Shown one piece after another: positions 35,675-40,568 of a DNA stretch of 64,000 bases. Source of the stretch: Agromyces tardus (GTDB taxonomy: Bacteria; Actinomycetota; Actinomycetes; Actinomycetales; Microbacteriaceae). The notes under the pieces are model-generated. The model was not told the DNA's origin and searched no databases. It saw only the letters and a program-made list of their open reading frames with translations. The stretch lies in assembly GCF_003710805.1 (NCBI RefSeq), contig NZ_RHHB01000004.1, positions 1 to 64,000 on the forward strand, written 5' to 3'. The translations under genes were made by a program, and so were the position numbers. Within the stretch, counting starts at the first letter, position 1. Each line of letters opens with the position of its first letter.

Positions 35675-37123
35675 TCAGCCCGGGGTGCCTGCCGCCGACG
35701 GCGTCGGCGAATCCGCGGCATCCGCCACCCGCTTCGGCAGCCGCACGAAGAGCATCATCACGAAGCCGGCCGCGAGGATCAGGGCGATGCCGAGGATGCC
35801 CCAGTACTGCGCGCCCGCGACGGAGATGAATCCCGCCCACAGCAGCGGCGAGAGGAAGCTCGCCGCGCGACCCGTCGTGGCGTAGAGGCCGAAGATCTCG
35901 CCCTCGCGCCCGGCGGGCGTCACGCGCGCGAGGAACGATCGGCTGGCGGCCTGCGCGGGGCCGACGAGGGCCGAGAGGAAGAGGCCGAAGACCCAGAACA
36001 CGGCCGTGCCGGCGTCGTGCGCGAAGAACACGACGAGCGTCGAGACGACGAGGCCGCCGAGCGTCGCGAGGATCACGGCGCGCGGCCCGAACCGGTCGTC
36101 GAGGCGGCCGGCGAAGATCGTCGACACGCCCGCGACGATGTTCGCCGCGACCCCGAAGATCACGACCTCGTTGAACGAGAACCCGAACGTGACGCTCGCG
36201 ATGAGCGCGCCGAACGTGAAGACCCCCGCGAGGCCGTCGCGGTACACGGCGCTCGCGAGCAGGAACCAGAACGTGGGCCGGGCCTCGCGCCAGAGCCGCG
36301 CGATGTCCCGCACGAGCACGACGTAGCTGCGGAAGAAGCCCACGCGCTCGCGGCCCGGCGCCGGCGGCGCCTCGGGCACGTTGAGGAAGATCGGCAGCGA
36401 GAACACGAGCGTCCAGACCGCGCAGAACAGGGCCACGATGCGGATGTTGAGCCCGCCCTCGGTGGGGATGCCGAACCAGCCCGAGAGCTGCGCCGCCACG
36501 ACGAGCGCGAGCACGACGATGCCGCCGAGGTAGCCGAAGCCCCAGCCGAGGCCGCTGACCCGCCCGACGGTGCGCGGCGTCGACACCTGCACGAGCATCG
36601 CGTTGTAGTTCACGCCCGCGATCTCGGAGAACACCGTGCCGGCGGCGAGCAGCCCCGCGCCGAGCCAGAAGAACCGGGCGTCGGCCTCGACGAAGAACAT
36701 CATCGCCATGCTCAGGATGACGCCGCCGGTCGCGAAGGCCAGCCAGGCCTTGCGGCGGCCCTCGGCGTCGGCCCGCTGGCCGAGCACGGGCGCCAGCAGG
36801 GCGATCAGGATGCCGCCGATGCCGATCGCCAGCCCGAGCTGGCTCGACAGGTCGGCGAGCCCGCGGTCGTACGCACGGTCGCCCTCGTCGAGGCCCGCGA
36901 CGTCGGACGGGAGGAAGAGCGCGCTCGTGAGGTACACCGAGAACACGAAGGTGGTGATGACCGAGTTGAACGGCTGCGTCGCCCAGTCCCACAGCGCCCA
37001 CGACCACACCTGCTTGCGCGGGATGCGCCGCTCGCCCTGCAGCTCGAGTCCCGTCATCACCTCGAAGTCGTCGGTGGTGGCGCCGCGGTCGGCGGCGGCG
37101 CGGGGGGCGTCAGGGTCGGTCAT
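35675..37123 (-). CDS. MFS transporter, UMF1/Atg22-like
   Basis: A 482-residue transporter with about 12 membrane segments; the N-terminal WALWDWATQPFNSVI motif is characteristic of the UMF1/Atg22-like MFS branch. Substrate unknown. ATG 37123 follows GGGAGACTC. The preceding kinase gene on the same strand ends 94 bp upstream; co-expression is possible. Confidence 0.85.
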   Translation of the reverse strand: MTDPDAPRAAADRGATTDDFEVMTGLELQGERRIPRKQVWSWALWDWATQPFNSVITTFVFSVYLTSALFLPSDVAGLDEGDRAYDRGLADLSSQLGLAIGIGGILIALLAPVLGQRADAEGRRKAWLAFATGGVILSMAMMFFVEADARFFWLGAGLLAAGTVFSEIAGVNYNAMLVQVSTPRTVGRVSGLGWGFGYLGGIVVLALVVAAQLSGWFGIPTEGGLNIRIVALFCAVWTLVFSLPIFLNVPEAPPAPGRERVGFFRSYVVLVRDIARLWREARPTFWFLLASAVYRDGLAGVFTFGALIASVTFGFSFNEVVIFGVAANIVAGVSTIFAGRLDDRFGPRAVILATLGGLVVSTLVVFFAHDAGTAVFWVFGLFLSALVGPAQAASRSFLARVTPAGREGEIFGLYATTGRAASFLSPLLWAGFISVAGAQYWGILGIALILAAGFVMMLFVRLPKRVADAADSPTPSAAGTPG

Positions 37124-37217
37124 GGGGGGAGTCTCCCGGCATCCGGTGAACGGTGGGTGACGGCGCGCCCGCCGGGGCGATCCGCGTCGATCCCGTGCAC
37201 TGTATCGCGCCCGCCCC

Positions 37218-38105
37218 CTACCGGTACACGTCCGCGATGAGCTCGCCGAAGAGCTCCTCGGCGTCGCACTCGAGCCGTTGCCGCGTGAACCAGTCGCACA
37301 CGTTGACGCAGTCGCGGTGCAGCAGGTCGAAGCCCTGCGGATTCGCGACCACGTCGACCACCTGGGGCAGGTCGATCGCCACGACCCGCCCCCGGTGCAC
37401 GAGCAGGTTGTACGGCGAGAGGTCGCCGTGCGCGAGCCCCGCGAAGGCGAGCGTGCGCATGAAGTCGGCGACCTGGTGGAACAGGTCGCGCAGCTCATCC
37501 GGCTTCGCCCGCACCTGGGCGAGGCGCGGAGCGGCGACCCGGCCCTCGCCGACGAACTCCATGAGCACCTCGGTCTCGCTCACCTGCACCGGGTACGGCA
37601 CCGCGGCGCCGAGCTCGAAGAGGCGGCCGAGCGCGTCGAACTCGGCGTACGCCCACTGCACGCGGGCGATGGCGCGGCCGTACGAGGTGCCCTTGGTGAG
37701 GGCGCGCATGTCGCGCGTGCGGCGCGTACCGCGACCCTCGGTGTAGATCGCCGAGCGGTGGAAGTCGCTGTGCTCGGTCGTGCGGTACCGCTTCGCGGCG
37801 AGCAGCGAGCGGTTGCCGGGCACGTCGGCGGGCGCATCGGGCACGGCCCGTTCGATGAGGAACAGGTCGGCCTCCTTGCCCGTCTTCACGACCCCGAGCT
37901 CGGTGTCGATCGCCGCGGCGGAGGTGACGAGCCAGTCGGGGCGCGGCTCGGGGCCGCGCTCGCTCGGCAGGGTGGCTGGCCACGTCGACCAGCGCTGGTC
38001 GGCGCCGGGCTCGGTGGACTGGAAGCGAAGGTCGGATGCCGCGCCGAACGGCGAAGCGGTCGTGCCCTGCGGCACGGTGTCGTCGAGTGACGAGAGAAGG
38101 TTCAC
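37218..38105 (-). CDS. RIO-type (atypical) serine protein kinase
   Basis: A 295-residue RIO-like kinase. The nucleotide-binding lysine is in LLAAKRYRTTEHSDF, the catalytic loop is HGDLSPYNLLV (about residue 227) and the metal-binding Asp is in VVAIDLPQVVD. Bacterial RIO proteins are little studied; ribosome or signalling roles are guessed. Its GTG start and GGAG site are sequestered by a hairpin, and a 20-codon leader ORF lies 50 nt upstream, so translation is probably regulated. Confidence 0.88.
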   Translation of the reverse strand: MNLLSSLDDTVPQGTTASPFGAASDLRFQSTEPGADQRWSTWPATLPSERGPEPRPDWLVTSAAAIDTELGVVKTGKEADLFLIERAVPDAPADVPGNRSLLAAKRYRTTEHSDFHRSAIYTEGRGTRRTRDMRALTKGTSYGRAIARVQWAYAEFDALGRLFELGAAVPYPVQVSETEVLMEFVGEGRVAAPRLAQVRAKPDELRDLFHQVADFMRTLAFAGLAHGDLSPYNLLVHRGRVVAIDLPQVVDVVANPQGFDLLHRDCVNVCDWFTRQRLECDAEELFGELIADVYR

Positions 38106-38155
38106 GGTGGTTCTCCGAGATCAGGAGGCCACCGGACGCCCGGCGCGAAACGGGC
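38105..38155 (-). promoter_or_regulatory. Leader-region hairpins masking the RIO kinase ribosome binding site
   Basis: Hairpin 1: GCCCG (38138-38142) pairs with CGGGC (38151-38155), beginning within the leader ORF stop codon. Hairpin 2: CGGTGG (38105-38110) with CCACCG (38129-38134), plus CTCC (38113-38116) with GGAG (38124-38127). On the transcript the GGAG site of the kinase and the first base of its GTG are paired. This is the arrangement expected of a translational attenuator. Confidence 0.6.
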
Positions 38156-38217
38156 TACGGGCGGGCGGCCTCACAGGGAAGGGTGTCTGCGATGCGCACG
38201 ACAAGGACGGTGTTCAT
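38155..38217 (-). CDS. 20-codon leader peptide upstream of the RIO kinase
   Basis: A short ORF starting MNTVLVVRIA and ending DTLPCEAARP. GGAGGGA lies 9 nt before its ATG, a better ribosome binding site than that of most genes here. Its stop is 49 nt before the kinase start and directly precedes the hairpins. I do not recognise it from a described attenuator. Cys and three Pro/Arg-type residues near the end could make ribosome pausing sensitive to amino acids. Confidence 0.5.
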   Translation of the reverse strand: MNTVLVVRIADTLPCEAARP

Positions 38218-38337
38218 CGGTCTCACTCCCTCCGGTCTCGGGTTGCGGGCTTCGGACGCCGCGTGGCGCGGTCCGCACGAGAGCATACGCCCCGAACGAG
38301 TCGGTGTCCACGTTCTGCCGGGCGGTAGGGTCGCGGC

Positions 38338-38922
38338 ATGCGCGAAGTCGTGTACGCCGGGGCATCCGCCACCGTCGTGCTCGTGGAGGGCGAGAGCGAC
38401 CGGCTCGCGCTCGAGGCGCTCGCCGAGCTCCTCCGCTTCGACCTCGCCGCGGCGGACGCGGCCGTCGTCTCCATGGACGGCGTGACGAACCTGCGCCACC
38501 ACCTCGCCGCGCTCGCTCGGACGCCGATTCGGCCCCGGGTGCTCGGACTCTTCGACCTCGCGGAGATCGCGCACGTGCGCCGGGCCGTCGAGGGCGTGGG
38601 ACTCGCGCGCCCCGGGTCGGATCTCGCGCAGCTCGGCTTCTTCGCGTGCGACCCCGACCTCGAGGGCGAGCTCATCCGGGCGCTCGGGTCGGAGCGGGTG
38701 GAGGAGCTCCTCGCCGAGCACGGCGAGCTCTCCCGGTTCCGCGGGTTCCAGCGTCAGCCCGCGCAGCGGGTCAAGGCGACCGAGGTGCAGCTGCGCCGGT
38801 TCATGGGCACGCACAGCGGGCGCAAGGCGCAGTTCGCGCCGATCCTCGTGCGTGCGCTCGACGTCGCGAGCGTGCCCGCGGCGATGGCGGCGCTGCTCGC
38901 CGCGGCGACCGACGCGGGCTGA
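38338..38922 (+). CDS. Stand-alone TOPRIM-domain protein
   Basis: A 194-residue protein consisting of an OLD/DnaG-type TOPRIM domain: VLVEGESDRLALEALAELL gives the catalytic Glu, DGVTNLRHHL and LGLFDLAEI the later acidic strands. No ATPase (OLD) partner is fused or next to it. Possible nuclease or regulatory role in nucleic-acid metabolism or defence; unproven. ATG lies 6 nt behind TAGGGT (38326-38331), a leaderless promoter. Confidence 0.7.
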   Translation: MREVVYAGASATVVLVEGESDRLALEALAELLRFDLAAADAAVVSMDGVTNLRHHLAALARTPIRPRVLGLFDLAEIAHVRRAVEGVGLARPGSDLAQLGFFACDPDLEGELIRALGSERVEELLAEHGELSRFRGFQRQPAQRVKATEVQLRRFMGTHSGRKAQFAPILVRALDVASVPAAMAALLAAATDAG

Positions 38923-38981
38923 GGCGCGCCGTTGGGGACATTGGTCCTCGACCTCGTGCGCTCTGCGTGCTTGGGTGAACC

Positions 38982-40568
38982 ATGGACCCCGCCGCATCCC
39001 CCGACGACGCGCAGCCGTTCAACCGGCGACTCGCACTCCTGCTCGCGATGGCGATGTTCGTGCTCGTCGTCGACACGTCGATCATGAACGTCTCGATCTC
39101 CGCCGTCGTCGAGGACCTCGGCACGACGGCGAGCGACGTGCAGGGCGCGATCGCGCTCGAGGCGCTCGTCTCGGCCGCGTTCATCCTCATCGGCAGCAAG
39201 ACCGGCGACCTCATCGGCCGCAAGCTCGCCTACATCCTCGGGCTCCTCGGCTACGCCGTCGGCGCCGTCGCGATGACGTTCGCCCAGGGCATCACGGCCG
39301 TGATCGTGTTCTGGGCGATCATCGGCGGCATCGGCGCCTCGCTGCTGCTGCCGGCGATGCAGTCGCTCATCCACGGCAACTTCGCGGGCGCGCAGCAGAA
39401 GCGCGTGTACGCGCTCGTCGGGGCGTCGGCGGCGATCGCTGCGGCGGTCGGCCCGCTGCTGGGCGGGTTCATCACCACGTTCCTGTCGTGGCGGGTGGCC
39501 TTCGGGCTCGAAGCCGTCATCATCGCGGTCGTGCTCTCGGGCATCGGGCTCGTGAAGGACGTGCCGTACACGGGCTCGCGTGCCGTCGACTGGGGCGGCG
39601 CGGCCTTCTCGGTCGTCGGCATGGGCGGCGTCGTGCTCGGCATCCTCGTGTGGCAGGAGGGCGGGCAGTACGTTGGCCTCATCATCGGCATCGGCGTGGT
39701 CGCGCTCGGCAGCCTCGCGTGGTGGCTGCGCGATCGCAAGCGCCGCGGGAGGGCGACCCTGATCGACCCCGGCCTGTTCTCGTCGAGGATCTTCCGCTCG
39801 GGCGTGAGCGGCCAGCTCCTGCAGCAGATCGCGCTCGGCGGCACCATGATCGTGCTGCCCCTCTACCTCCAGATCGTGCTCGAGTACAACGCGCTGTGGG
39901 CCGGCCTCTCGATCGCCCCGCTGTCGCTCAGCATGTTCGTCGTGGCCATGCTCGCGGGCAGGCGGGCGAAGGGCCGGCCGAGCAACATCATCCTCTGGGG
40001 GTTCGGGCTGCTCGTGGTGGGCATCGTCGTGATCATCCCGCTCGTGCCCCGCGCCGACTCGGGCTGGTGGCTCACGATCCCGCTCATCATCGCCGGATGC
40101 GGCCTCGGGCTGCTCGTCTCGCAACTCAACAACTACACGCTCTCGCCGATCTCCGACGAGCGGGTCAGTGAGGCGGCGGGCGTGAACTCCGCGGCCGGCT
40201 CGTTCGGCCTCTCCTTCGGGCTCGCGTTCGCGGGTGCGATCCTGCTCGCCGTGCTCGCGTTCTCGTTCACCGCGCGGACCGAGGCGAGCACCGTGCTCTC
40301 GCCCGATCAGCAGCAGCAGGTCGCCGCCGTGCTCGAAGAGGACGCCCAGCTCATGTCGACCACCCAGCTCGAGGAGCTGCTCGCCGACGAGACGCCCGAG
40401 GTGCAGGACGAGATCATCGCGATCAACACCGACGCCCGCCCGATCTCGCTGCAGGTCGCGCTGCTCGTGCCCCTGCTCGCGGGGCTGGCGGGCATGGTGG
40501 TCGCGCTCAGGATGCGCAAGCTCCCCGACCCGACGCCGTCGGGGGCCGCGGAGACGATGATCGGCTGA
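38982..40568 (+). CDS. MFS drug-type transporter, DHA2-like
   Basis: A 528-residue transporter with about 14 membrane segments, motif A-like GSKTGDLIGRKLAYILG and motif C region AAVGPLLGGFI, matching the DHA2 efflux family. A charged loop of 50 residues (QQQQQVAAVLEEDAQL region) precedes the last helix. Likely exporter of a small hydrophobic compound; no regulator is adjacent. Confidence 0.85.
   Translation: MDPAASPDDAQPFNRRLALLLAMAMFVLVVDTSIMNVSISAVVEDLGTTASDVQGAIALEALVSAAFILIGSKTGDLIGRKLAYILGLLGYAVGAVAMTFAQGITAVIVFWAIIGGIGASLLLPAMQSLIHGNFAGAQQKRVYALVGASAAIAAAVGPLLGGFITTFLSWRVAFGLEAVIIAVVLSGIGLVKDVPYTGSRAVDWGGAAFSVVGMGGVVLGILVWQEGGQYVGLIIGIGVVALGSLAWWLRDRKRRGRATLIDPGLFSSRIFRSGVSGQLLQQIALGGTMIVLPLYLQIVLEYNALWAGLSIAPLSLSMFVVAMLAGRRAKGRPSNIILWGFGLLVVGIVVIIPLVPRADSGWWLTIPLIIAGCGLGLLVSQLNNYTLSPISDERVSEAAGVNSAAGSFGLSFGLAFAGAILLAVLAFSFTARTEASTVLSPDQQQQVAAVLEEDAQLMSTTQLEELLADETPEVQDEIIAINTDARPISLQVALLVPLLAGLAGMVVALRMRKLPDPTPSGAAETMIG

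Follow-up and report, generated by a model that had tools for sequence, protein, structure and literature searches.

We identified a short leader open reading frame (ORF) and a set of alternative RNA helices upstream of a RIO kinase gene in Agromyces tardus, and comparison with related loci confirms the element, its conservation and its association with RIO kinase genes. The element probably acts as a translational attenuator that reports translation of the leader and not a particular peptide. This class of mechanism appears well supported by comparison, through the leader ORF and its place, a covarying helix that reaches into the leader codons (helix 1:2), the co-adaptation of a second helix at the kinase Shine–Dalgarno (SD) sequence (helix 2:3), and the association with RIO kinases. 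All coordinates are positions in the window, a 64,000 nt stretch of A. tardus contig NZ_RHHB01000004.1.

The RIO kinase locus and its leader

The kinase gene occupies 37218..38105 on the (−) strand and encodes a 295-aa RIO1-type atypical protein kinase with a GTG start at 38105 and a match to the Pfam RIO1 family (PF01163, E 1.5e-33). The best solved chains for the protein are RIO3 and Rio1 (E 6e-21 to 3e-18), and alignment to these chains reveals the sequences HGDLSPYN and IDLPQ, which correspond to HxDLSxYN and IDxxQ, presumably the catalytic motifs of the RIO domain. Models of PA4780-type and archaeal Rio1 proteins also match the kinase, each below its own cut-off. Kinase matches occur in 57 of 60 genomes of the same genus, and the best named matches are from Agromyces. 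Downstream of the kinase gene, and possibly co-transcribed with it, is a gene for an ATG22-like MFS permease (35675..37120, (−) strand, start uncertain). We rejected the permease as a conserved target of the element because only 39 of 99 RIO loci, including loci of Microterricola, Microbacterium and Leifsonia, have a homologue downstream on the same strand. On the other side, a divergent gene at 38338-38922 (+) encoding a 194-aa protein with an OLD-like TOPRIM domain (PF20469, E 1.4e-8) adjoins the leader promoter.

The leader transcript is predicted to be driven from a promoter-like site, TGGACA and TATGCT separated by 17 nt (38282..38310, (−) strand, 9/12 matches), which is the sole sigma-70-like site in 37000-38500, compared with an average of 0.0 in shuffled sequences. 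Transcription would start near 38275, placing a GC-rich hairpin predicted by folding, GGACCGCGCCACGCGGCGUCC (38254..38274, (−) strand), where the transcript presumably begins; frames upstream of other Agromyces leaders (TAPRGIR-like) suggest similar letters at this position. A strong leader SD, GGAGGGAG (arm 0, 38226..38233, (−) strand), precedes a 20-codon ORF, MNTVLVVRIADTLPCEAARP (38155..38217, (−) strand), that runs from an ATG at 38217 to a TAG stop ending at 38155. The leader ORF with a strong SD that the original prediction placed ahead of the RIO kinase is therefore present (38217-38155, SD 38233-38226), giving the kinase gene a short ORF with its own SD directly upstream, and the leader is likely to be translated. 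We found no terminator-like site (a GC hairpin followed by a T run, as in an intrinsic-terminator attenuator) in 37000-38500, and no Rfam match up to E 1 in 36500-39500.

To compare leaders we built an alignment (A1) of 100 distinct leader-to-kinase sequences, nearly all from the family of the window and one from Aeromicrobium. An automatic search found the leader in 111 of 124 loci; 12 of the 13 missed were added by eye and L074 was dropped, its leader being the same as that of L073. Two copies of the window and one weak match (L001, L002 and L017) were excluded before counting, and removal of duplicates left the 100 distinct sequences. The start codon is ATG in 99 of the 100, leaders are 14–24 codons long, and the SD, stop position and frame of the ORF are kept in relatives. 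Arm 1, the leader strand of helix 1:2, lies at a multiple of 3 from the leader ATG in 88 of the 96 sequences in which it could be placed. The eight exceptions (L073, L077, L081, L086, L090, L091, L096 and L099) are 14-codon leaders with a TGA at arm 1, so that a terminating ribosome would still cover this arm.

Alternative pairings of the leader RNA

Three strands of the RNA form the two folds. Arm 2, GGUGGCCUCC (38124..38133, (−) strand), is the anti-SD strand common to both and is supported by covariation and co-adaptation; arm 1, GAGGCCGCC (38164..38172, (−) strand), spans leader codons 16–18 and forms a covarying helix with arm 2; and arm 3, GGAGAACCACC (38106..38116, (−) strand), combines the kinase SD (38116-38113) with the bases up to the GTG and pairs near-invariantly. 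The SD-masking hairpin of the original prediction is found as GGUGGCCUCC at 38133-38124 with GGAGAACCACC at 38116-38106, adjoining the GTG. The hairpin predicted to start within the leader stop can also be read in the sequence (GCCCG 38155-38151 with CGGGC 38142-38138), and we set it aside as a conserved stem since the interval between leader stop and kinase start, in which it lies, ranges from 29 to 98 nt. The key helix had been overlooked: helix 1:2 joins arm 1, in the last leader codons, to arm 2 through 9 bp (GAGGCCGCC 38172-38164 with GGUGGCCUC 38133-38125), is also found as an inverted repeat, and covaries.

Of the 891 cells of helix 1:2 across the 100 distinct sequences, 94.4% are paired, compared with 31–55% in shifted registers. 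Twenty-seven cells carry double changes and 6 of the 9 pairs are changed on both sides; in 500 shuffles the covariation score was never matched, and the number of pairs changed on both sides was matched twice. Unguided RNAalifold recovered six helix 1:2 pairs and nothing else. Compensatory changes in a stem had been anticipated, and they occur in this helix reaching into the leader codons, not in the stop-codon hairpin. Helix 2:3 is nearly invariant, with 83.1% of its 834 cells paired (0/500 shuffles; 36–52% in slid registers). Its double changes do not rise above column shuffles (pairs, 153/500; cells, 60/500); most slid registers have more of them, and for cells all do.

A duplex test comparing each sequence's own arms with permuted partners further supports both helices and reveals a third pairing, between the leader SD and a pyrimidine tract in codons 11–14, CACCCUUCCC (arm 0′, 38176..38185, (−) strand), which is also predicted by folding. 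In the 91 of 100 sequences with arms located, none of 2000 permutations equalled the observed pairing for 1:2, 2:3 or leader SD with tract, with relatedness controlled only through slid registers and control pairings, and with the arm-1 pattern placed on the stop codon, 19 nt late, in L114, L118, L120 and L123. The 54 sequences outside Agromyces gave 0, 0 and 1 of 2000 for the same three pairings, and two control pairings were no better than permuted ones (1393/2000 and 1907/2000). One of these controls, leader SD with arm 2 (1393/2000), is thereby rejected for the main set; families f12 and f14 differ, with the same pairing predicted in five of six loci. The two mutually exclusive folds are thus supported in different ways, 1:2 by covariation and 2:3 by co-adaptation but not by column covariation. 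Folding energy alone is unexceptional (z −1.36; 18 of 200 shuffles equally good), and support for the element is comparative. In a subgroup (L089, L092, L095, L102 and L115), GAAAG replaces GGAG ahead of the kinase start, and in some of these loci the arm-2 region has a GGAGA/UCUCC-type hairpin of its own; the logic at the kinase SD may differ there.

Ribosome passage and competing readings

We propose that arm 2 would pair with one of two partners, arm 1 within the leader's final sense codons or arm 3 at the kinase SD. A ribosome reading the leader to its end would cover arm 1 and leave arm 2 to mask the kinase SD, the OFF state. A stall within about the first ten codons, or a failure of ribosomes to load, would allow arm 1 to hold arm 2 and leave the kinase SD more open, the ON state. 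The signal would then be slowed or inhibited translation, antibiotics included.

Predicted folds of the 95 of 100 sequences usable for modelling ribosome states point in this direction. Helix 2:3 has a median probability of 0.17 when a ribosome sits at codon 6, compared with 0.98 when the leader is covered to its stop, and from the first state to the second the probability rises by more than 0.3 in 49 of 95 sequences and falls by as much in none. From this rise in 2:3 we expect the kinase SD to be masked once the leader has been read through, and to be opened by a stall early in it. Ribosome-free RNA is predicted to be a mixture (mean 2:3 probability 0.36, median 0.13), with a mean not lower than the 0.37 obtained with a ribosome at codon 6. 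Whatever the state, the kinase SD stays largely paired (mean unpaired 0.19 ribosome-free, 0.16 at codon 6 and 0.06 at the stop), and its opening gains more than 0.2 over the stop state in only 27 of 100 sequences, with one in the opposite direction. The same models bear on the reverse arrangement, in which ribosomes finishing the leader melt the structure at the kinase start and kinase translation needs leader translation. Such activating coupling would suit the closeness of leader and kinase, which are 29–98 nt apart or overlapping, and in 28 of 95 loci the full footprint of a ribosome at the stop would extend into the arm-2 window, so that a long pause there could open the SD in some species; in the other 67 loci arm 2 stays free under the full footprint, with a median 2:3 probability of 0.74. 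The strengthening of the masking helix upon leader coverage runs against coupling, as do the widely varying leader–kinase gaps, and we regard this reading as quite unlikely.

The leader codons weigh on two further readings. Over codons 2–14, pairwise averages on these short stretches, calculated without a tree, give pN/pS of 1.31 (n = 31), 0.85 (n = 17) and 1.15 (n = 14) in three leader groups. The other two frames give 0.52–1.10, so the coding frame, being no lower, is not the constrained one. A recount of the second group with 18 sequences gave pS 0.291 and pN 0.244, and in two conserved stretches of the kinase from the same strains pN is far below pS. Overlapping leaders, a second design described below, behave likewise: in family f24 and its relatives the 10 rows in register give pN 0.165 and pS 0.154, and the full set of 13 gives 0.255 and 0.211, while 9 rows of f18 give pN 0.198 and pS 0.217. 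A classical drug- or amino-acid-dependent arrest leader, in which a nascent VLVV or VFV near codons 4–7 stalls the ribosome and opens the kinase SD, would draw on the hydrophobic TVFV or TVLV run that several genera share close to the N terminus, on the fact that a stall at this run leaves arm 1 free, and on a GLPAD-like stretch that recurs in the overlapping leaders of f24 and relatives. The run is, however, missing in some genera (MTATSEKTPHPSSPEAAV, MTASNESAMNPSFPEVAAF), inspection by eye revealed no repeated regulatory codon, and the residues are not under the purifying selection expected of an erm-type arrest peptide in any of the three leader groups, so that peptide-specific arrest is not supported and an arrest leader appears unlikely. 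The ribosome-stalling attenuator of the original prediction therefore stands as a leader ORF with SD masking and finds no support as peptide-specific stalling (pN/pS 0.85–1.31). Of the two failings named in advance as telling against it, amino-acid constraint is indeed absent, and a stem does covary. Nucleotides in the leader are more conserved than codons explain: in the Agromyces group, synonymous change is 0.135 in the leader versus 0.37–0.41 in the kinase stretches, and the codon GCA is fixed in 31 of 31 leaders. This conservation would also fit a structured 5′ UTR with an incidental ORF, to which a protein or small molecule binds, as in a riboswitch or in autoregulation by the kinase. Against it stand the kept SD, ATG (99/100), stop position and frame, the short ORF present in families of quite different sequence, and the lack of an Rfam match; we consider it improbable. 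The comparisons are most consistent with a leader ORF and leader nucleotides that are kept and leader residues that are not.

Known leaders share parts of this arrangement. The erm and ABC-F attenuators (ErmCL, ErmAL1 and VmlR type) depend on an arrest brought about by the drug, and their RNA is closed in the untranslated state. They resemble the RIO element in having a leader ORF, mutually exclusive hairpins and a main SD that is masked or free, and the RIO element differs in its lack of residue constraint, its three arms rather than four, and an untranslated RNA predicted to be a mixture. Cysteine-responsive mycobacterial leaders, likewise actinobacterial short ORFs controlling a downstream gene, carry runs of Cys codons, whereas the leader in the window has one Cys. 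The whiB7 upstream ORF (uORF) of actinobacteria is described as responding to several translation stresses, and is alike in phylum and in being a uORF, with whiB7 as a different target (PMC12121999). By analogy, the closest system in working is toiL–topAI of Escherichia coli. This uORF is reported to sense several ribosome-targeting antibiotics, and the likenesses are a short uORF, a main-gene ribosome-binding site (RBS) masked by RNA pairing that stalled ribosomes are proposed to open, and a response not bound to one drug (PMC12121999). The toiL–topAI hairpin, as described there, pairs the uORF with the topAI RBS, whereas in the RIO element a separate anti-SD strand would choose between leader codons and kinase SD. 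The two also differ in gene and phylum, and the RIO element is known here from sequence and predicted folds.

Leaders across actinobacterial RIO kinase loci

We searched 120 genomes of the window's family with a covariance model of the element (R1) under stricter filters. R1 matches all 15 family genomes known to hold a full-length kinase homologue (E 1e-7 to 1e-18) and also two further genomes, G194 and G832, both kinase-bearing. The genome of the window has one clear copy, its next match being at E 0.011. There are 11 weaker matches in the family (E above 1e-4) and 23 weak ones in the window's own genome, and the three read from each set (L235–L237 and L238–L240) are coding-like or without a suitable gene after them; none of these six weak matches places another gene under the same element. 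The arrangement is also rare by chance. Among 120 Agromyces SD-start genes, only 2 have an SD-led ORF of 13–25 codons ending 25–80 nt upstream, and one of the two is this kinase gene, with an arm score of −12.6, compared with −4.6 for the other gene and a median of −12.25 for 100 RIO leaders.

Outside the window's family, across 13 other families, a strong-SD short ORF precedes 53 of 61 RIO loci, a collected subset of the positive genomes, versus 7 of 124 background genes, all from Agromyces and possibly including this kinase gene. The conservation of leaders upstream of RIO kinases anticipated by the original prediction thus holds both within the family (R1 in 15/15) and beyond it (53/61). 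The remaining 8 loci lack a leader by the fixed rule (L140, L155, L187, L189, L192, L195, L257 and L261); two of these (L257 and L261) have one by another rule and two more (L187 and L189) by eye.

These loci follow two designs, with the leader either separate from the kinase gene or overlapping its start. In the separate leaders of family f9 the arms have other letters: all six loci have an arm 2 (GGCUCCUC, GGCCCCUC or a similar sequence) that pairs with the SD GAGGAGC, arm 1 (GAGGAGC or GAGGGGCC) pairs with arm 2 by duplex prediction in L135, L141 and L146, and inspection by eye places arm 1 at the stop codon in L136, L138 and L144. Overlapping leaders, found in several actinobacterial families (f18, f24, f6 and others), begin 53–73 nt ahead of the kinase start and run across its SD. 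Reading such a leader would block kinase initiation directly, following the same logic as the separate leaders, and the two architectures may serve one end in one gene family.

We tentatively extend the proposal to a class-wide actinobacterial element in which a short leader, read for ribosome passage and not for its peptide, sets the level of RIO kinase, a generalization we put at somewhat less than even. Archaeal and eukaryotic RIO kinases are tied to small-subunit maturation, and if the class-wide reading is true, bacterial RIO kinases would be tied in a comparable way to the state of the translation machinery. Kinase synthesis that depends on leader completion suggests that the kinase is needed when translation falters, which would offer a way into the signals that bacterial RIO kinases answer. 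The element would also exemplify an attenuator with a leader of conserved position, length and RNA pairing and unconserved residues. The original prediction knew of no such element for RIO kinases, and our search of the open-licence literature agrees: among the papers listed on RIO kinases with leaders, on bacterial and actinobacterial RIO kinases and on actinobacterial leaders, none reported it, an absence that is weak evidence; the same literature yielded no study of the role of RIO kinases in bacteria of this kind.

More distant actinobacterial loci were surveyed as well, leaving out rows in which the start motif was not found (L157, L159, L162, L163, L168–L170 and L172–L177). An SD-led short ORF precedes the kinase in L158 (by eye), L160, L161, L166 and L167, and some of these have a CUCC..GGAG pair; L164, L165 and L171 have no clear leader. 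The distant loci hint at an older origin of the leader arrangement. Many overlapping leaders of f24, f21 and f121 (L250–L265) share a GGCCTGCCCGCAGACC-like nucleotide stretch and a peptide resembling MS-TV-GLPAD, and GCAGAC, which includes the same Ala codon as in these overlapping leaders, recurs in the leaders of Agromyces too.
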